Positions 675-39,843 of a stretch of 41,526 nucleotides of DNA are shown here, piece by piece. Source of the DNA: an uncultured Bacilli bacterium (lineage in GTDB: Bacteria; Bacillota_I; Bacilli_A; RF39; UBA660); NCBI GenBank assembly GCA_944358415.1, contig CALVRA010000011.1:1-41526 (forward strand), in the 5' to 3' direction. The first letter of the stretch is position 1. The number at the start of each line of letters is the position of its first letter. A program made the position numbers and the translations under genes. The notes beneath the pieces are model-generated. The model did not search any database. It saw only the letters and a program-made list of their open reading frames with translations, and was not told the DNA's origin.

Positions 675-1733
675 TTATGGTCCGGTAGGCCCAGTAGGTC
701 CAGTAGGTCCAGTTGGTCCAGTAGGTCCAGAAGCACCAGTAGGTCCAGAAGCTCCTTGAGGCCCAGTAGGTCCAGTTGGGCCAGATACACCTTGTGGTCC
801 AGTAGGCCCAGTAGGTCCTGTAACAGTGCTGGCTGCTCCAGTAGGTCCAGTAGGACCAGTAATACCTTGTGGTCCAGTAGGCCCAGTACTGCCTGATGGC
901 CCAGTAGGTCCAGAAGCTCCTTGTGGTCCAGTAGGACCAGTAGCTCCAGCAGTTCCAGAAGCACCAGTAGGTCCTGTTGGCCCAGAGACTCCTTGAGGCC
1001 CAGTAGGTCCAGTTGGCCCAGATACACCTTGTGGTCCAGTAGGCCCAGTAGGTCCTGTAACAGTGCTGGCTGCTCCAGTAGGTCCAGTAGGACCAGTAAT
1101 ACCTTGTGGTCCAGTAGGCCCAGTACTGCCTGATGGCCCAGTAGGTCCAGAAGCTCCTTGTGGTCCAGTAGGACCAGTAGCTCCAGCAGTTCCAGAAGCA
1201 CCAGTAGGTCCGGTAGGTCCAGAAACTCCTTGAGGTCCAGTCGGCCCAGTCGGACCAGTAGGCCCAGCTACAGTACTCGCCATACCAGTAGGACCAGTAG
1301 CTCCAGCAGGAATTGTCAAATTTAAAAATAAATTTGGAGTTACACCAGTTATACTCGCACTAGCTTGACTTCCAGGTGCCCCTGTTGTTACAGTTCCAAT
1401 TGTAATATTCGGACTTGCGCCAGTCGCACCTGTTGCTCCAGTTGGTCCAGTTGCTCCTGCTGGCCCAGTAGGTCCAGTCGCCCCAGCCGGTCCTGTTGGT
1501 CCAGTCGCTCCTGCTGGAATACTAAACGTTAGTATTGCGTCCTGATTAGTTCCTGTATTTGAAACAGTCGCAGGAGTTCCAGGATTTCCAGTTGTTGTTG
1601 TGCCAATTGCTATTGTAACTGGTCCAGCCGGTCCTGTTGGCCCAGTTGGACCAACATTGCCAATTTGCTCTCGGCACCGGCGTCCTTCTTCTAATATCTG
1701 TTCTATTTTATTATTACAATTTCTTTGACTCAT
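675..1733 (-). CDS. Collagen-like Gly-X-Thr repeat protein
   Basis: A 352-residue protein dominated by GPT/GPQ/GAT triplets. Residues 1-26 are a short polar leader ([20 protein letters not shown], then REQIGN). Two non-collagen inserts follow, at about 38-75 and 110-143, each ending in a hydrophobic '[14 protein letters not shown]' strand. After that the triplets run unbroken to the stop. The family (BclA/ExsF-like and gut collagen-like surface proteins) forms trimeric fibres on spores or cells. No TM segment, LPXTG or secretion signal is seen, and no C-terminal TNF-like head: the protein stops in mid-repeat at GPTGP. The gene is far more GC-rich than its neighbours, partly because of Gly and Pro codons. 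Start supported by AAAGGAG at 1741-1748. It runs against its neighbours. Confidence 0.85.
784..1257 (-). repeat. 237-bp tandem duplication inside the collagen-like gene
   Basis: Two direct copies of a 237-bp (79-codon) unit lie at 784-1020 and 1021-1257. The first 191 bases of each are identical, including the non-triplet AASTVTG interruption; the rest differ at a few places. The near-identity points to a recent in-frame duplication, the usual way collagen-like tracts change length. Confidence 0.85.
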
Positions 1734-4515: not shown

Positions 4516-4539
4516 AGTCTAACCATGGCTTTATTTTTT
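4509..4539. terminator. Shared terminator of convergent genes
   Basis: AAAATAAAG (4509-4517) pairs with CTTTATTTT (4529-4537) around an 11-base loop, with A-runs on the left and T-runs on the right. It overlaps the 3' ends of both converging genes. AT-rich and of moderate strength. Confidence 0.55.
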
Positions 4540-4746
4540 CTTTTCAAAAATTATATTTATATCATTTTTTTTACAAATTTCCATTAAAGCTTTAAAAGTA
4601 TAATTTCTTTTTCCTTGTTCATAATTTTGAACAGTACCCTTAGAAACATTAATTTTTTTTGCAAACTCCTCTTGAGTTAATTCTGTCCATTCTCTAATTA
4701 TTTTAAATAATTCTTTTGAATTATAATCCATCGCATTTATTTTCAT
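4531..4746 (-). CDS. XRE-family regulator of module 1
   Basis: A 71-residue protein that is almost only a Cro/CI-type helix-turn-helix: LTQEEFAKKINVSKGTVQNY is the HTH, followed by EQGKRNYTFKALMEIC and a short IIFEKKK strand. No sensor or dimerisation domain is present. The start at 4746 has a GGGAGG site upstream. It is divergent from the surface-protein gene at 4867, with a palindrome between them, so it probably represses that gene and itself. The C-terminal 'TF...I/L...F-E' pattern is shared with the regulator at 17015, which suggests common descent of the modules. Confidence 0.85.
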   Translation of the reverse strand: MKINAMDYNSKELFKIIREWTELTQEEFAKKINVSKGTVQNYEQGKRNYTFKALMEICKKNDINIIFEKKK

Positions 4747-4866: not shown

Positions 4867-5769
4867 ATGAAAAAAATAAAAGAATTTTCAAAGAAATATT
4901 TAATAGGATTTACATTAGGACTAATAACATCAGGAATAGTAGTAGTGTGTGCAGCGACATATTTTCCATCAAATCAAACAACATATGATAATGGGACAAC
5001 AGGAATGAGTGCAACAAATGTCCAAACAGCTATAGATGAATTATATAATACATGTTTTCCTAAAGCCGGAGAACAAATAATAGAAGATGCCGGCTTAGAA
5101 AAAGACCCATATGAATGTAGATATTTCTTTAAAGGAGCAACCCCCAACAATTACATAATCTTTAATAATGAAACATGGCGTATTATTTCAGTCGAATGTG
5201 ATGGAACAATAAAAATAATGAAAGAAGCAAGTATAGGAAATATGGTATGGGATTCATCAAATTCAAAAAATTGGGCAAGACCAGCCAGTTTAAATACATA
5301 CTTAAATGGAACATATTATAGTAGTTTAACTAGTACAGCTCAAAGCCAAATTGTATCGAAAGATTTCAGTATAGGCGGAGTAACATGGGATAATAATGAT
5401 TTAGCTACGCAAATAAATGAAGAGAAAGCAACAAAATGGAACGGAAAAGTTGCATTGGTAACAGTCTCAGAATATATAAGAAGCAATAGTAATAAAAGTA
5501 GTTGTGGAACATTTAGTTTATATAATGATAATTCTAGTAACTGTAAAAATACAACCTGGATGTATTATTCAAAGGACCATTGGTGGACTTTGTCCCCTAT
5601 TTCTGGCGACTCTTCCTATGCGTTCGATGTGACCTTTCGCGGCACCTTCAGCAGCCACAGCACCGTCAACGACTCTCGTGGAGTTCGTCCGGTCGTCTAT
5701 CTAAGCTCTAAGGTCAAAATTACAGACGGAACAGGGATTTCTACAGATCCATATCAAATTTCACTATAA
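4867..5769 (+). CDS. Signal-anchored C-lectin-like surface protein, module 1 (candidate DGR target)
   Basis: A 300-residue protein. Residues 1-32 are a basic start plus one hydrophobic segment (signal peptide or anchor). Residues about 36-62 hold NGTTGMSATNVQTAIDELYN, resembling phage tail-fibre segments. The body has RYFFKGATPNNYI, FNNETWRIISVE, SLNTYLNGTYY and EYIRSNSNKSSCGT. The end has WWTLSP, then GVRPVVYLSS and a final DPYQISL. This layout resembles DUF6273/C-type-lectin-fold proteins; the exact family needs a profile search. Codons 239-278 have a base composition unlike the rest of the gene (see the separate block). ATG 4867 follows GGGGAGG at 4855-4861. Two paralogues lie at 17359 and 38908. 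Ligand unknown; extracellular binding is inferred. Confidence 0.75.
   Translation: MKKIKEFSKKYLIGFTLGLITSGIVVVCAATYFPSNQTTYDNGTTGMSATNVQTAIDELYNTCFPKAGEQIIEDAGLEKDPYECRYFFKGATPNNYIIFNNETWRIISVECDGTIKIMKEASIGNMVWDSSNSKNWARPASLNTYLNGTYYSSLTSTAQSQIVSKDFSIGGVTWDNNDLATQINEEKATKWNGKVALVTVSEYIRSNSNKSSCGTFSLYNDNSSNCKNTTWMYYSKDHWWTLSPISGDSSYAFDVTFRGTFSSHSTVNDSRGVRPVVYLSSKVKITDGTGISTDPYQISL
5581..5712 (+). other. Adenine-poor, GC-rich variable-region-like block
   Basis: In 5581-5700, 67 of 120 bases are G or C and 17 are A. In the 120 bases before, 32 are G or C and 51 are A. Of the 40 codons, 33 end in C or T, 6 in G and 1 in A (GGA). The block starts at WWTLSP and ends in a GC-rich stretch (GTTCGTCCGGTCGTC, 5683-5697) that could serve as the 3' anchor of a DGR variable region. 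Host-like composition resumes about 5712. No template repeat or reverse transcriptase is visible in the window. Confidence 0.5.
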
Positions 5770-5778
5770 TAAAAATTT

Positions 5779-5817
5779 AAAGGGCTTTTAAAACTAATTT
5801 ATAAAAGTTCTTTTTTT
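5779..5817 (+). terminator. Terminator of module 1
   Basis: AAAGGGCTTTTA (5779-5790) pairs with TAAAAGTTCTTT (5802-5813) with two G-U pairs, followed by more T. Confidence 0.7.
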
Positions 5818-5839
5818 GTAAAGTAAATTATCAATTCCA

Positions 5840-5868
5840 TTGTTTTAAAACCAAAAATATATTATAAT
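5840..5868 (+). promoter_or_regulatory. Promoter of uppS-cdsA-rseP
   Basis: TTGTTT (5840-5845), a 17-base spacer, TATAAT (5863-5868). It is placed right after the module 1 terminator and 26 bases before the uppS start. Confidence 0.6.
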
Positions 5869-5894
5869 TATTATTGGAATAGTGAGGTAGTAAA

Positions 5895-6626
5895 ATGGAT
5901 TATTCAAAATTAAAAATTCCAAATCATGTCGCAATCATTGTTGATGGAAATGGTAGATGGGCCACAGAAAAAGGAATGAGTAGAAGTGAGGGACATAAAC
6001 AAGGATTTTTAAACTTAAAAAAATTAACGGCTTATATCTTTTCTAAAAATATAAAATATATAAGTGCTTATCTTTTTTCGACCGAAAATTTCAAAAGAAG
6101 TGAAAAAGAAGTAAATTTTATCATGAATTTATTAACCAAACAGTTAAAAGACATTCTAAATTTTTGCCATGAAAATCAAATAAAAGCTGTTTTTTCCGGT
6201 AGAAAAGAACACCTTTCAGAAAAAGTATTAAAAGCAATTCAAACAATCGAAAAAGAAACAAATATATACAAAGATAGAATTTTCAATATCTGCTTTAATT
6301 ATGGTGGTCATACAGAAATAATCGACGCCATAAAAAAAATCATCAAAGATGTTAATGAAAATAAACTAGACATTAACTCATTAGATGAAGAAACATTCAG
6401 TAAATACTTATACCAAAACTTGCCAGAAGTTGATTTAATGATTAGAACCTCTGGTGAACAAAGACTAAGTAACTTTATGCTTTGGCAAAACTCTTATGCT
6501 GAATTTTATTTTCCAAAAACCTATTTTCCAGACTTTGATGAAAATGAATTTGATAAAGCAATTTTAGAATACACAAAACGTGATAGAAGATTTGGAGGTA
6601 TTGATTATGAAAAAAAGAGTCATTAG
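5895..6626 (+). CDS. uppS: Undecaprenyl diphosphate synthase (isoprenyl transferase)
   Basis: A 243-residue cis-prenyltransferase. It adds isoprene units from IPP to farnesyl-PP, making the C55 lipid carrier for wall synthesis at the cytoplasmic membrane. Near the N-terminus, HVAIIVDGNGRWA holds the catalytic Asp17; SRSEGHKQG follows. YLFSTENFKRS lies in the middle, and the C-terminus has IRTSGEQRLSNFMLWQ and YAEFYFP, all family signatures. Length is normal. It overlaps the following cdsA by 20 bases, which implies coupled translation. The ribosome site (GAGGT) is modest. Confidence 0.95.
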   Translation: MDYSKLKIPNHVAIIVDGNGRWATEKGMSRSEGHKQGFLNLKKLTAYIFSKNIKYISAYLFSTENFKRSEKEVNFIMNLLTKQLKDILNFCHENQIKAVFSGRKEHLSEKVLKAIQTIEKETNIYKDRIFNICFNYGGHTEIIDAIKKIIKDVNENKLDINSLDEETFSKYLYQNLPEVDLMIRTSGEQRLSNFMLWQNSYAEFYFPKTYFPDFDENEFDKAILEYTKRDRRFGGIDYEKKSH

Positions 6627-7407
6627 TGCATTCATCGCTCTTGCTATTATAATTCCATTAATTATAGATGGAGGATTAATATTTAATCTTGGTGTTTATG
6701 CAATTTCTATCCTTGCTTTAAAAGAATTTTTAGATATTAAAGCCACAAAAAAACAAATACCAATTTTTATACAATTAATCGCATATATTTTTATAACCAT
6801 ATTAATTGCCTTTAACTCAAAAGATTTATCTAACGTCTTCACATTAGACTATAGAATATTATCCGCATTATTTATGGCTTTTCTAATTCCAACCGTATTT
6901 TACCATGAAAGGTCAAAATATAGTATAAATGATGCCTTTTACTTAATTGGTGGACTATTATTTCTAGGAATATCTATGTCTTTATTAATACTAGTGCGAA
7001 ATGTTGATTTATATTTATTAGTATTCTTGTTATTAATACCAATGATTACTGATATATTCGCATATATAACAGGTATGTTAATAGGAAAACATAAACTATT
7101 AGAAGAAATCTCACCAAAAAAAACTGTTGAAGGTATGATTGGTGGAACCCTAATGAGTGTATTTATAAGCGCTATGTTCTATCACACCATGATTGATCCA
7201 TTATTTCCAAAGTTAAACTTACTTGCAATATGTACATTCTTATCAATTTTAGGTCAATATGGAGATTTAGTATTTTCTGCCATTAAACGTTATTTTGGAA
7301 AAAAAGACTTTTCACATCTTTTACCAGGTCACGGTGGAATATTAGATAGATTAGATAGTATTATCTTTGTCTTATTAGGCTTCATGTTTTTCATGACAAT
7401 TATATAA
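6607..7407 (+). CDS. cdsA: Phosphatidate cytidylyltransferase
   Basis: A 266-residue integral membrane enzyme that makes CDP-diacylglycerol from phosphatidate and CTP, the branch point of phospholipid synthesis. Several hydrophobic helices lead to the CdsA signature near the C-terminus: SAIKRYFGKKDF, then HLLPGHGGILDRLDS. An in-frame start further upstream would give nine more residues, but ATG 6607 is preferred: GGAGGT lies at 6594-6599 and the protein then begins MKKRVISAFI as in homologues. The start lies inside the end of uppS. In many Bacillota dxr follows; here rseP follows directly. Confidence 0.94.
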   Translation: MKKRVISAFIALAIIIPLIIDGGLIFNLGVYAISILALKEFLDIKATKKQIPIFIQLIAYIFITILIAFNSKDLSNVFTLDYRILSALFMAFLIPTVFYHERSKYSINDAFYLIGGLLFLGISMSLLILVRNVDLYLLVFLLLIPMITDIFAYITGMLIGKHKLLEEISPKKTVEGMIGGTLMSVFISAMFYHTMIDPLFPKLNLLAICTFLSILGQYGDLVFSAIKRYFGKKDFSHLLPGHGGILDRLDSIIFVLLGFMFFMTII

Positions 7408-7419
7408 AAGGAGGACTTT

Positions 7420-8457
7420 ATGACATTAATTTATTTTATTTTAATATTAGGAGTAATAGTGTTAATCCATGAATTTGGACATTTCATATTTGCTAAAAAA
7501 GCTGGTATTTACGTCTATGAATTTTCTATAGGTATGGGACCAAGAATCTTTAAATGGACAAGGAAAAATGATGAAACAGAATATTCAATAAGATTAATTC
7601 CAATTGGTGGCTTTGTTCAAATGGCCGGAGAAGAAGTCGAAGATGACAAAAGCATTCCCAAAAATAAAAAATTCGGTACTAAAACTTTTGGACAAAAATT
7701 TATGACAGTCATCGCTGGTATCATGAATAACTTTATTTTAGCCATTTTACTTTTCTTTATTATTGCTTTAATCAGTGGTGCTCCACAAAATAAAGCCATA
7801 ATAGGAGAAATAAGTGAAGACTATCCAGCTTATACATCAGGTCTAAAAACTGGTGATAGAATCTTAAAAATAAATGGTAAAAATGCCAAAACTTATGATA
7901 CTCTTGCCCTAGAACTTCAAGTAAATAATGGTAAGAAAATAGAAATGGAAGTTGACAGAAATGGTAAAACAAAAACCATAAACCTAACTCCAAAAAAAGA
8001 AAAACAAGATGGACAAACAGTTTATAAATATGGCTTCACTATCACTGATGAAGTTGAAACAGGCCTCTTTGCCTCACTAAAATATGCCTTTACTAAAACA
8101 TTCAGCTTACTTCATCAAATGATTTTAATCATTGCTTATTTAGTAACAGGGAATTTAAACTTAACTGCTTTATCAGGCCCAGTTGGTATCTACAGTATTG
8201 TTGGAACAGCTGCCAGTAGTGGTATCTTATCAATATTAAGCTTAACAGCTTTATTAAGTGTAAACGTGGGCTTTATTAACTTACTTCCACTTCCAGCTTT
8301 TGATGGAGGAAGACTTTTATTCATAATAATTGAAAAAATCAAAGGAAAACCAGTTGACCCAAGATTAGAAAATACTATTCATTCCATTGGATTTTTCTTG
8401 TTAATGGCCTTAATGCTATTAATAACTTATAACGATATTATTAGACTAATAAAATAG
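7420..8457 (+). CDS. rseP: Site-2 intramembrane metalloprotease RseP/RasP
   Basis: A 345-residue protein with the zinc motif HEFGH (residues 17-21) in the first membrane helix. A PDZ domain spans about 125-205 (YTSGLKTGDRILKINGK), and the second metal-ligand motif is PLPAFDGGRLL near residue 295. Later helices complete the S2P fold. RasP-type proteases cut anti-sigma factors and leftover signal peptides within the membrane. ATG 7420 follows AAAGGAGG. Third gene of the uppS operon, followed after 8 bases by the ABC transporter. Confidence 0.94.
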   Translation: MTLIYFILILGVIVLIHEFGHFIFAKKAGIYVYEFSIGMGPRIFKWTRKNDETEYSIRLIPIGGFVQMAGEEVEDDKSIPKNKKFGTKTFGQKFMTVIAGIMNNFILAILLFFIIALISGAPQNKAIIGEISEDYPAYTSGLKTGDRILKINGKNAKTYDTLALELQVNNGKKIEMEVDRNGKTKTINLTPKKEKQDGQTVYKYGFTITDEVETGLFASLKYAFTKTFSLLHQMILIIAYLVTGNLNLTALSGPVGIYSIVGTAASSGILSILSLTALLSVNVGFINLLPLPAFDGGRLLFIIIEKIKGKPVDPRLENTIHSIGFFLLMALMLLITYNDIIRLIK

Positions 8458-16991: not shown

Positions 16992-17016
16992 AAAAGAGTT
17001 CAAACGAACTCTTTTT
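16991..17016. terminator. Bidirectional terminator
   Basis: AAAAAGAGTTC (16991-17001), loop AAAC, then GAACTCTTTTT (17006-17016). It serves the thioredoxin-membrane gene and the converging XRE gene. Confidence 0.85.
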
Positions 17017-17251
17017 AAATGTCTTTTCTTAAAATATCTTTGCTTTCAAACTTTTCCTTACTTTTAACATCCTCAAAATATATTTTAAAGCCACATTTAT
17101 TAAGTAAAGTTTCAATCATCTCAAAAGTAGGTTGTCTAAACTCTGTTTCATAATTTCCTAAAGTTGTTCTGTTAATATTCGCAAGTTTTCCAAGCTCTTC
17201 TTGAGTAAGACCAGATTTTCCTCTCGCATATTTTATAATTTTTCCTATCAT
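17015..17251 (-). CDS. XRE-family regulator of module 2
   Basis: A 78-residue HTH protein: MIGKIIKYARGKSG, LTQEELGKLANINRTTLGNY as the HTH, then TFEMIETLLNKCGFKIYFED and a charged tail. The longer ORF from 17278 lacks a ribosome site, whereas 17251 has a GAGGGGTGG stretch upstream, so the shorter form is chosen. Its C-terminal part matches the module 1 regulator pattern. It is divergent from the surface protein at 17359, with a palindrome inside that gene's promoter. Confidence 0.82.
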   Translation of the reverse strand: MIGKIIKYARGKSGLTQEELGKLANINRTTLGNYETEFRQPTFEMIETLLNKCGFKIYFEDVKSKEKFESKDILRKDI

Positions 17252-17295
17252 TTTACACCACCCCTCACATTGTTTCATATTGTGGCATTTTTGTC

Positions 17296-17358: not shown

Positions 17359-18297
17359 ATGAAAGAAAAGATTAAAAAAGTTTTTAAAAATAGAATACTT
17401 ATTTTTATATTAAGTGGCCTTGTTTTTGGAACAATAGGAGTCTCAGCTGCTACATATTTTAAAAGCATAGATGTTACTTATGATAATACTGAAAGTGGAT
17501 TATCTGCAAATAATGTCCAATCCGCAATCGATGAACTTTATACAAAAATTCCAGATAATACTATTGTAAGTGATTTAAAACAAAATATAGTAACTAAAGG
17601 AGATGGACTTTACAAAGACGAATATGAAGATAGATATTTTTTTAAAGGGGCCAATCCTAATAATTATATTGCTTTTGATGGATACATGTGGCGCATAATA
17701 TCTATCGAACCAGATGGGGCTTTAAAAATAATAAATATGTCAAGAATTTACGATAGAGCGTGGGGAGAAAATTCCGATGCATCATTAGACTGGAAAGATG
17801 CTACATTAAATAAAACTTTAAATGAGACATATTATAATACTATTAGTAATGATTCAAAAAATTATATAATATCACATGATTTTAATGTTGGTACTATTAG
17901 AAGATATAACTATCCTTTAAATACATTAATAGAACAAGAAAATAGTAGCAAATGGAATGGAAAAATTGCTTTAATTACATTAACTGAATATCTTAGAACC
18001 AATAGTAATAGTAGTTGTGATGATACATTGAACAGTTTTAATCCTACAAATTGCTCAAATACCACTTGGTTAAAAATGACAGGTGATTATTGGTGGTGGG
18101 GTCTAACTAGAATTAATGATGAAAACTATGTTTTAAATTTTAATGAAGAAGGGAATATTTATTTTTCTAATAGGACTTGTTATAATAATGCAGATTCTTA
18201 TGGATGTCAAATAACTGTTCATCCTGTTGTTCATTTAAAATCTGATATAAAACTTTCTGGAAGTGGAACCTCTTTAGATCCGTACAAAATTAATTAA
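17359..18297 (+). CDS. Signal-anchored C-lectin-like surface protein, module 2
   Basis: A 312-residue paralogue of the proteins at 4867 and 38908. Basic N-terminus, hydrophobic segment (about 12-34), then TYDNTESGLSANNVQSAIDE matching the tail-fibre-like motif. GDGLYKDEYEDRYFFKGANP and MWRIISIEPDGALKI follow. C-terminal features are YWWWGLTRIND, TVHPVVHLKSDIKL and a final DPYKIN. The RP motif of the other two copies is HP here, and the C-terminal region has ordinary AT-rich codon use, with no sign of a mutated block. ATG 17359 is supported by AAAGAGG at 17345-17351; upstream in-frame ATGs overlap the promoter. Likely exported and anchored; ligand unknown. Confidence 0.72.
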   Translation: MKEKIKKVFKNRILIFILSGLVFGTIGVSAATYFKSIDVTYDNTESGLSANNVQSAIDELYTKIPDNTIVSDLKQNIVTKGDGLYKDEYEDRYFFKGANPNNYIAFDGYMWRIISIEPDGALKIINMSRIYDRAWGENSDASLDWKDATLNKTLNETYYNTISNDSKNYIISHDFNVGTIRRYNYPLNTLIEQENSSKWNGKIALITLTEYLRTNSNSSCDDTLNSFNPTNCSNTTWLKMTGDYWWWGLTRINDENYVLNFNEEGNIYFSNRTCYNNADSYGCQITVHPVVHLKSDIKLSGSGTSLDPYKIN

Positions 18298-28270: not shown

Positions 28271-28288
28271 TTATAGTAGGTGATAAAG

Positions 28289-28660
28289 ATGAAAAGTAAA
28301 GCTTTCACACTAGTTGAATTACTAGGTGTTATTGTTGTTTTAGGTATTCTTGCAATGATTACCGTTCCAATTGTTCAAAGAACTATCATTGATAATACAA
28401 ATAGCGTCTATGAAGATCAAATAACTAGTTTTGAAAAGGCCGCTAGAAACTATGTCGGTCAAGATCCATTTAAAATGACTAAATGTCAAACTGAAAATTG
28501 TGAAATAACTTTAGAAGAACTTCAAGACAAAGGCCTTCTTCCATCAGGTGATATTAAAAACCCAAAAACCGATGAAAATTTCAATTTAAAAAATGTTGTT
28601 AAAATAACCTATGACGGAAATAAATATACTTATAAATATGATACCTCTCAAGATGAATAA
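28289..28660 (+). CDS. Orphan type IV pseudopilin-like protein
   Basis: A 123-residue protein. A short basic leader MKSKA is followed by FTLVELLGVIVVLGILAMIT, the class III prepilin signal and hydrophobic stalk with Glu at +5. The globular part has two Cys (KCQTENCE) and LEELQDKGLLPSGDIKNP, as in ComGC/PulG-type pseudopilins. The residue before Phe is Ala, where most substrates of prepilin peptidase have Gly. No assembly ATPase, platform protein or peptidase is in the window. ATG 28289 is chosen over a GTG at 28280, which lies in the AGGTGAT ribosome site. Only a few bases separate it from the methyltransferase gene. Confidence 0.82.
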   Translation: MKSKAFTLVELLGVIVVLGILAMITVPIVQRTIIDNTNSVYEDQITSFEKAARNYVGQDPFKMTKCQTENCEITLEELQDKGLLPSGDIKNPKTDENFNLKNVVKITYDGNKYTYKYDTSQDE

Positions 28661-38345: not shown

Positions 38346-38372
38346 AAAGCGAACTAAATTCGCTTTTTTTTT
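38344..38372. terminator. Bidirectional terminator
   Basis: AAAAAGCGAA (38344-38353), loop CTAAA, TTCGCTTTTT (38359-38368) then T4, between DUF362 and the converging XRE gene. Confidence 0.85.
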
Positions 38373-38797
38373 CATCTTAAAAAATCATCAATCGAAATTT
38401 TATGATTTTTACATATTGAATATAAAGTTAATGTAGTAATCAAATTCATGCCGATTTCATAATGGCAGTAAGTGGCCCTAGAAATACCACATTCATCCGC
38501 AATCTTTTGTTGGGATAACTTTAATGACTTTCTTAAAGTCTTAAGTTTTTCACCAACAATTTTTTTATCTAATTTAATTTTATCAGAATACTTTTTATTT
38601 TCTCTAGTTAGACCTAAAATAAAATCTAATGAATATCCATATAAATTGGAAAATTTAACTAACTTTTTAAGAGGCATAGTTTCGTATGCATTTTCCCAAT
38701 TGGATACAGTTCCTTTTTGTACACCAAATACATATCCAAGCTCCGTTTGTGTCATTTCCAATTCTTCACGGCATTCCTTTAATCTATTTTCTATCAT
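38372..38797 (-). CDS. Tandem-HTH XRE-family regulator of module 3
   Basis: A 141-residue protein with two Cro/CI-type HTH domains. One is at about 5-60 (MTQTELGYVFGVQKGTVSNW); the second is at about 85-140 (LSQQKIADECGISRATYCHY). No other domain. The longer reading from 38905 adds 36 hydrophobic residues encoded by the promoter region and is rejected; ATG 38797 has a GGTGAT site. It differs from the single-domain regulators of modules 1 and 2, but occupies the same divergent position before a homologous surface protein. Confidence 0.83.
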   Translation of the reverse strand: MIENRLKECREELEMTQTELGYVFGVQKGTVSNWENAYETMPLKKLVKFSNLYGYSLDFILGLTRENKKYSDKIKLDKKIVGEKLKTLRKSLKLSQQKIADECGISRATYCHYEIGMNLITTLTLYSICKNHKISIDDFLR

Positions 38798-38798
38798 A

Positions 38799-38815
38799 TT
38801 TATCACCCAGATAAA
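38799..38815. promoter_or_regulatory. Candidate operator TTTATC-ACCCA-GATAAA
   Basis: A perfect 6+6 inverted repeat with a 5-base spacer immediately upstream of the XRE start codon, overlapping its ribosome site on the minus strand. It is about 60 bases before the module 3 -10, so it would suit autoregulation better than direct blocking of the surface-protein promoter. Confidence 0.4.
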
Positions 38816-38870
38816 TTTTCTCATCAAACAGGAAAATGTTATCAAAAGTATGTGCCATATACCAAAAATG

Positions 38871-38879
38871 TGATATAAT
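38871..38879 (+). promoter_or_regulatory. Extended -10 promoter of module 3 surface protein
   Basis: TGATATAAT (TATAAT at 38874-38879), 29 bases before ATG 38908. The -35 is weak. Confidence 0.55.
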
Positions 38880-38907
38880 AAATTTGAAAATAAAGAAAGG
38901 AGCAAAT

Positions 38908-39843
38908 ATGAAACTCAAAAATTTTATTAAAAATTATTTAACAGGATTTTTTATTGGCTTAATATTATTTACCGTAGTAGGTGTCTCAGCAGCTGCAGTT
39001 TTCCCATCAAACCAAACAACATATAATAATGGAACTACAGGCATGTCAGCAACCAATGTCCAAACAGCCATAGATGAACTTTATAATACATGTTTTCCAC
39101 CTAAAACAGGTGGTGAGGCAATATTAGAAAAAGTACCTATAGTAAATTTGGGAGATGGATTATATAAAGATGAATATGAAGATAGATATTTTTATAGAGG
39201 AAAAAATCCAAATAACTATATAATGTTTAATAATGAAAATTGGAGAATATTGTCAATAGAAAGTGATGGCACTATTAAAATAATTAGAAACGAAAAGATA
39301 GGAAATATTGAATGGGACACATCGGGAGCTCCGGAAAGTAATAATTGGATGCGCCCAGCAAGTTTAAATACATATTTAAACGGAACATATTTGAATGGAT
39401 TGACTTCTACTGCTCAAAGTCAAATAGTCGCCAAAGATTGGAGTATAGGAGCAGTAACAGATGATAATAATAATTTATCAAACCAAATCGAAAAAGAAAA
39501 TTCAATTGTTTGGAATGGGAAAATTGCTCTTCCAACATTAAGTGAATATATAAGAAGTAATAGTAATAAAAGTAGTTGTGGAACACATGAACTACATAAA
39601 GATAATTATAGTACATGTGGAGAAAGTACATGGATGACCATTAATACCTTTTGGTGGACTCTTACCAAAAATTCTGACTTTTCTAGCACTGTTTTCCGTA
39701 TAATTATGAATGACAATTTTTATGATTATGACGTTGCCAACCTACTTAATAATATGGTTCGGCCAACACTTTATCTCTCATCAGATATCAAAATCACTAA
39801 CGGAGACGGTTCGCAAAATAATCCATATACTTTATCACTATAA
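38908..39843 (+). CDS. Signal-anchored C-lectin-like surface protein, module 3
   Basis: A 311-residue paralogue of the 4867 protein, with large near-identical segments: FPSNQTTYNNGTTGMSATNV, QTAIDELYNTCFP, RPASLNTYLNGTY, LTSTAQSQIV and EYIRSNSNKSSCGT. N-terminal signal/anchor at about 10-30. GDGLYKDEYEDRYFYRGKNP is shared with module 2. The C-terminal domain has FWWTLTKNSD, MVRPTLYLSSDIKIT and a final NPYTLSL; between these the sequence differs almost completely from module 1. ATG 38908 follows AAAGGAG at 38896-38902; the in-frame upstream start overlaps the promoter. Likely exported and anchored. Confidence 0.75.
   Translation: MKLKNFIKNYLTGFFIGLILFTVVGVSAAAVFPSNQTTYNNGTTGMSATNVQTAIDELYNTCFPPKTGGEAILEKVPIVNLGDGLYKDEYEDRYFYRGKNPNNYIMFNNENWRILSIESDGTIKIIRNEKIGNIEWDTSGAPESNNWMRPASLNTYLNGTYLNGLTSTAQSQIVAKDWSIGAVTDDNNNLSNQIEKENSIVWNGKIALPTLSEYIRSNSNKSSCGTHELHKDNYSTCGESTWMTINTFWWTLTKNSDFSSTVFRIIMNDNFYDYDVANLLNNMVRPTLYLSSDIKITNGDGSQNNPYTLSL
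39670..39780 (+). other. Second variable-region-like block (weaker)
   Basis: Aligned with the module 1 block. In 39661-39780, 31 of 40 codons end in C or T and A falls to 35 of 120 bases. GC (39 of 120) stays close to host level. The flanks match module 1 (FWWTL before, RP..YLSS after) while the middle has diverged. Compatible with an older mutagenised variable region, but also with ordinary divergence. Confidence 0.3.

Follow-up and report, generated by a model that had tools for sequence, protein, structure and literature searches.

A very probable diversity-generating retroelement variable region in a dispersed family of DUF6273 genes of an uncultured Bacilli bacterium

The chromosomal diversity-generating retroelement (DGR) of Treponema denticola has remote targets, up to seven in number and ranging from two to seven among isolates (PMC4891356; TvpA structure 2y3c). 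DUF6273 proteins with a C-terminal variable region (VR) have been described as DGR targets in Faecalibacterium prophages (PMC11792537). In the BPP-1 system, homing requires a hairpin just after the VR, and phage DGRs share stems of 7–10 bp and GRNA loops (PMC3240598). The DGRs of Thiohalocapsa PB-PSB1 act in trans on remote targets (PMC10907252). As Roux et al. point out, metagenome surveys seek VRs next to the reverse transcriptase (RT) gene and so miss remote targets; their own survey of 30,000 DGRs is described there as blind to such targets (PMC8144416).

We analysed a window of 41,526 nucleotides, which constitutes contig C11 of the draft genome of an uncultured Bacilli bacterium (1.2 Mb, 40 contigs, 75.8 % complete). 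The host is a gut-type bacterium. One gene in the window contains a GC-rich, adenine-poor block, which we consider very probably to be a VR written by a DGR. The system resembles that of T. denticola in being chromosomal, with a single core locus and several target genes at a distance from it, and in having VRs at the 3′ end of genes for putative surface proteins with a C-type-lectin fold, where deviations occur mostly at template adenines. It differs in its host, a Bacilli lineage, in its DUF6273 targets and in scale: its 1.2-Mb genome carries approximately 25 gene-sized paralogs, a VR-like block being present in 10 or more, against the two to seven targets of T. denticola. Domain family and C-type-lectin fold are shared with the DUF6273 targets of phages (Faecalibacterium prophages, PMC11792537; tentaclin phages nd4 and nd12, PMC10743442), as are the C-terminal position of the VR, in the case of the Faecalibacterium phages, and a related RT, in the case of nd12. 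Unlike those phage systems, the cassette described here appears to be chromosomal, lying beside housekeeping genes, and its targets are remote bacterial surface-type proteins rather than phage structural proteins. An RT, Avd, a template and adenine-specific change are common to this system and BPP-1 (PMC3240598), and the GATA loop of hairpins at cassette-linked targets is akin to the GRNA loop of BPP-1. In contrast to BPP-1, template and Avd are separated by a MutS-I-like gene, the hairpin stands about 104 bp after the VR rather than 4, and the window target has no hairpin. As in Thiohalocapsa PB-PSB1, a template at another genomic site accounts for the remote targets and mobile elements duplicate DGR parts, although targets and host are different and the template identified here, designated TR1, is not the exact template of the window VR. 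DUF6273 targets and remote targets are already known; what stands out is a large dispersed target family in a 1.2-Mb genome.

Residues 127–280 of the protein encoded by the window target gene match Pfam DUF6273 (PF19789, E = 1.2e-11). Positions 5581–5700 have a GC fraction of 0.558 and an A fraction of 0.142, against 0.267 and 0.425, respectively, in the preceding 120 bases (5461–5580). The block is in frame with the gene start at 4867, and the third bases of its 40 codons are C (20), T (13), G (6) and A (1). Pyrimidine-ending codons therefore number 33 of 40, compared with 101 of 238 earlier in the gene (Fisher P = 2e-6). When all 120-bp segments of the window were scanned, GC reached 50 % only at starts 5548–5639 and in a collagen-like repeat gene near 645–1700, which argues that the composition of the block is not chance background. 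An initial annotation, made from the window alone, had proposed a candidate VR at 5581–5712; its composition figures and codon endings were reproduced exactly, and its statement that the window contains no RT agrees with the absence of one among the window ORFs. The block itself was confirmed, but alignment to the template bounds it better at approximately 5590–5692, after which a shared tail extends to approximately 5713. The window's other GC-rich stretch encodes a collagen-like Gly-Pro-Thr repeat protein of 352 residues (675–1733, minus strand), and a small prepilin-like protein (KAFTLVELLGVIVVLGILA) is encoded at 28280–28660 on the plus strand. Divergent Xre-type helix-turn-helix genes lie upstream of all three target paralogs in the window (4531–4746, 17015–17278 and 38372–38905, all minus strand).

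Table 1. Features of the window (contig C11) and paralog VRs on other contigs of the same genome
Feature	Position	Strand	Description
Target gene	4867..5769	+	300 aa; N-terminal hydrophobic segment/signal anchor, then DUF6273 C-type-lectin-fold domain
Conserved stretch directly 5′ of VR	5490..5589	+	Sharp edge of hypervariation relative to paralogs C30 and C7b
VR, refined by template alignment	5590..5692	+	Residues 242–275 of target protein
VR 3′ edge and target-family tail	5683..5713	+	GTTCGTCCGGTCGTCTATCTAAGCTCTAAGG; first 23 bases match C7:14477 and G019:C2:28664
Divergent Xre-type helix-turn-helix gene adjoining target gene	4531..4746	-	HTH_3, E = 4.5e-10
Target paralog	17365..18297	+	VR position AT-rich (GC 0.24), no TR1 similarity
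Target paralog	38911..39843	+	VR position AT-rich (GC 0.33) with pyrimidine at 74 % of codon third bases; possibly decayed VR
Paralog VR compared with TR1	C20:16356-16457		A-site/other changes 17/0
Paralog VR compared with TR1	C39:13952-14053		A-site/other changes 18/0
Paralog VR compared with TR1	C1:53518-53619		A-site/other changes 20/1
Paralog VR compared with TR1	C4:32067-32168		A-site/other changes 18/1

A family search of the source genome identified three RTs, on contigs C2, C4 and C9. The C2 cassette comprises, in order, the AAC-rich template TR1 (C2:80169-80270, 102 bp, about 1 kb upstream of the RT gene), a MutS-I-like gene with a MutS_I Pfam match, Avd and the RT. Its flanks, judged by sequence, are mraY- and trigger-factor-like genes upstream and a PriA-like gene downstream, and on account of these housekeeping genes the cassette looks chromosomal rather than phage-borne. 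The RT matched RVT_1 (E = 3.6e-18) and the PHROG reverse transcriptase family (3e-80), its relatives include RTs of Bordetella phages as well as that of DGR phage nd12, and its closest named records are from uncultured Bacilli; in viral contigs, only RTs of 32–36 % identity were found. It also contains the motif IGNMTSQ, which we take to be a mark of DGR-type RTs. Avd was recognized by bAvd (PF22296, E = 1.3e-11, above cut-off) and by the PHROG family 'Avd protein of DGR' (1.4e-15), whilst its NCBIfam DivGenRetAVD match (E = 2.7e-13, 50.1 bits) fell below the cut-off of 80. The C2 system thus combines a DGR-type RT, an adjoining Avd and a template with adenine-specific VRs, and is a DGR.

Further DGR-related sequences were observed in the same genome (G000). 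A second Avd–RT pair is present on C4, where this second DGR comprises a 773-residue target (G000:C4:7912-10233, minus), Avd (7289–7633) and RT (5576–6679). The VR of that target runs straight into an apparent template 3′ flank with no template remaining, an arrangement to be expected if crossing-over of the VR with the template had caused a deletion. As no template remains there, the C4 cassette was rejected as the source of the window VR, and the C9 RT (G000:C9:4927-5886, minus) was rejected as a DGR RT because it is retron Ec107-like. An ORF on C2 (L019:3639-4301) starts as the N-terminus of an IS605-type TnpB (HTH_OrfB_IS605) and ends, in frame, with TR1; it appears that the original target next to the C2 cassette has given way to an insertion element. 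Exact copies of the 102-bp template body, fused to a target-type tail, occur at G000:C1:53129-53308 and G000:C4:31684-31866 (both minus), in both cases shortly after a target gene, from which a hairpin separates them; these are possibly reciprocal products of VR–template crossing-over. A second MutS-I-like gene (G000:C1:52634-53044, minus) adjoins a template copy, with no Avd or RT nearby. A template 3′ flank (CTCTAAAACACTATGGGTTATGAACTAATATGGTCATAA...TTAGAG) with nested pairing potential is strongly conserved across loci L016, L141, L142, L144-L148, L105, L113, L116 and L124, and probably forms the structured portion of the DGR RNA. Five viral contigs contain an exact match to 27 bases of TR1.

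A protein search of the source genome matched the window protein at 46 places, about 25 of them gene-sized. At least 10 paralogs carry a fresh-looking VR (GC 0.46 or more, A 0.20 or less); the others have GC values of 0.22–0.42, and some of these AT-richer 3′ ends are perhaps decayed VRs. Many genomes of the genus have an expanded set of DUF6273 genes, whereas other families of the class that were sampled seldom carry the domain; matches occurred in only two genera among 59 relatives. Four paralog VRs align to TR1 without gaps over 102 bp (36 adenine and 66 other sites; Table 1), and all 73 of their changes at template adenines fall at codon positions 1 and 2. Such near-exclusive change at template adenines is the hallmark of mutagenic retrohoming. 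Paralogs with AT-rich ends align to TR1 only in short stretches, which shows the signal to be more than generic. TR1 was missed by a small local BLAST search of the RT loci, since A-site changes break seeds, and was recovered by a scan that did not count template A as a mismatch. Ordinary transfer of a GC-rich segment from another organism, with no part played by a DGR, would account for the composition of the block alone, but it is extremely improbable given that homologous paralog blocks match a local AAC-rich template and differ from it at template A only, and that the window block is in frame and homologous to VRs.

The window VR bears the same signature. Across 5590–5669, aligned gap-free to TR1, changes affect 19 of 31 A sites as opposed to 8 of 49 non-A sites (P = 4.7e-5), and the A-site changes are distributed 9/10/0 over codon positions 1/2/3. 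Five of the eight non-A changes lie at codon position 3, where A-site changes are lacking, which suggests that the window VR was written from a template variant differing from TR1 by silent third-base changes. In translation, TR1 reads LSPNSSNSNNVFNVNNNGNVNNNNANNTNNAVRP and the window block LSPISGDSSYAFDVTFRGTFSSHSTVNDSRGVRP; various residues take the place of the TR1 asparagines, while L, S, P, F, V, G, V, R and P mostly persist as a framework. Identity between the window and paralog C30 falls from 91 % in the 100 bp before the VR to 52 % inside it (P = 5e-10), and from 88 to 60 % for paralog C7b (C7:14072), so hypervariation begins sharply at the 5′ edge of the block. Orthologs at the same place beside uppS in sister species encode proteins only 36–60 % identical, too diverged for a site-by-site test. 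C-type-lectin binding loops evolve fast in many proteins, and ordinary selection on a ligand-binding loop could in principle produce codon and composition bias with no retroelement. We regard this as very improbable: the template-A changes occupy codon positions 1 and 2 only, an exact template repeat stands beside the Avd–RT cassette, and the 5′ edge of hypervariation is abrupt.

An AlphaFold2 model of the target built with 18 relatives had a mean pLDDT of 82.3. In the fold comparison, a Thomasclavelia ramosa IgA peptidase ranked first through its N-terminal part (Z 16.8 over 191 residues), and no other match rose clearly above the range in which hits can be generic. Lower matches included the C-terminal domain of Legionella Lcl (Z 7.2), T. 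denticola variable protein 1 (TvpA; Z 6.1, 130 residues) and many animal C-type lectins. A sequence profile search of solved structures with the target returned no match. Because C-type lectins recur consistently among the lower matches and published DALI results for DUF6273 support this fold (PMC10743442), the modelled C-type-lectin assignment appears sound. The likeness to C-type-lectin-fold targets noted at the outset is thereby borne out by domain, model and fold matches, TvpA among them. The VR sits at the 3′ end of the target, within the aligned domain (residues 95–279). The protein is presumably displayed on the cell surface, where VR variation would serve ligand binding.

Taken together, these features are best explained by a DGR on C2 that would reverse-transcribe an AAY-rich template RNA while randomizing the bases at its adenines, the resulting cDNA then replacing the 3′ end of genes for surface proteins with a C-type-lectin fold (DUF6273). 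AAY codons would become NNY codons, and this conversion would give rise to a GC-rich, A-poor, pyrimidine-ending block. The window gene would be one of a large dispersed target family, distant from the machinery.

The exact template is a separate matter. In the available 76 % of the source genome, no template matched the window VR at all non-A sites, and an IUPAC pattern allowing A at every site found only the block itself. A shorter IUPAC pattern yielded no exact template in 44 genomes of the genus, although this search was weak, with poly-A runs matching both it and a reversed control. TR1 remains the closest template, and the window VR ends in GGAGTTCGTCCGG where TR1 has GCGGTCCGCCCT, a 3′-end mismatch on the strength of which TR1 should not home efficiently at the window. 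The first 23 bases of the window 3′ edge show 0–1 mismatches to a pattern common to C7:14477 and G019:C2:28664. G019, a genome of the same genus, carries a complete target–TR–MutS_I–Avd–RT cassette with an RT 95 % identical to that on C2; the target at C2:28664 adjoins this DGR RT, and its VR bears the 3′ edge sequence of the window. Several template variants exist in the genus, and such variants are common there and beyond. We infer that the window VR derives from a close TR1 variant, absent from the assembly or since changed; the missing template may belong to the quarter of the genome that is not in the assembly, or may have been lost.

The C1:53443 and C4:31992 targets have a hairpin with an 8-bp stem and GATA loop 104 bp after the VR, followed by a template-body copy; in the G019 cassette target this stem carries a GTTA loop instead. 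No hairpin with a stem of at least 7 bp was found within 340 bp downstream of the window copy, which accordingly lacks an acceptor hairpin of the BPP-1 type (7–10 bp stem, 4-nt loop), and nine further paralogs that carry a VR likewise proved hairpin-less over 262–340 bp. The C20 and C39 paralogs are hairpin-less and carry near-perfect TR1-type VRs, so a hairpin is not needed for a copy to have been written. Target paralogs are also mosaic: C20 has a C1-type body (93 %), but its stretch before the VR is window-type (84 %, compared with 73 % to C1). Either these DGRs can write without a hairpin, or many dispersed VRs were written at the cassette and then moved by recombination, and we give the two about equal weight. 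The initial annotation had inferred a DGR acting in trans and suggested a search for a near-copy template beside an RT gene. A DGR origin of the block is supported by the RT, Avd and template in the genome and by adenine-specific VRs, and TR1 does lie beside an RT gene on another contig; however, TR1 differs from the window VR at non-A sites too, the exact template was not found, and the 3′-end mismatch and absent hairpin qualify the proposal of action in trans.

Two accounts of the window copy follow from this. With nearly an even chance, it is an active target in trans, its VR rewritten today by a template variant in the missing genome quarter or by an undiscovered second DGR. The window VR composition still appears fresh (A 0.15, GC 0.55) relative to old copies (GC 0.24–0.36), and the existence of several template variants in the genus and the 75.8 % completeness of the genome are in keeping with current writing, but no matching template was found in the available part of the source genome or by the noisier 44-genome search, and no hairpin follows the window VR. 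We hold tentatively, and at somewhat less than an even chance, that the VR was instead written at a cassette-linked target and reached the window gene through recombination among paralogs, and that this gene does not now serve as an acceptor. Such relocation is consistent with the hairpins after the C1, C4 and G019 cassette targets and their absence at the window and nine paralogs, with the hairpin requirement of BPP-1 (PMC3240598) and with mosaic paralogs such as C20. Yet the switch in C20 from window-type flank to TR1-type VR falls approximately at the VR 5′ edge, as expected of retrohoming in place, hairpin dependence is established only for BPP-1-type DGRs, and 12 of 23 related cassettes checked also have no simple hairpin.

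In sum, a window without an RT was recognized from composition alone, and the genome confirmed the machinery. This small genome combines two DGRs with a large, dispersed family of targets and with VRs that range from fresh to decayed, and in such a genome reads could separate writing in trans from relocation of VRs already written. It is possible, though we think it rather unlikely, that VRs are written only at hairpin-bearing cassette targets and spread by recombination into hairpin-less paralogs. If so, this small bacterium would keep a library of past lectin tips, an archive in which retroelement hypermutation is combined with antigenic variation in the style of gene conversion.
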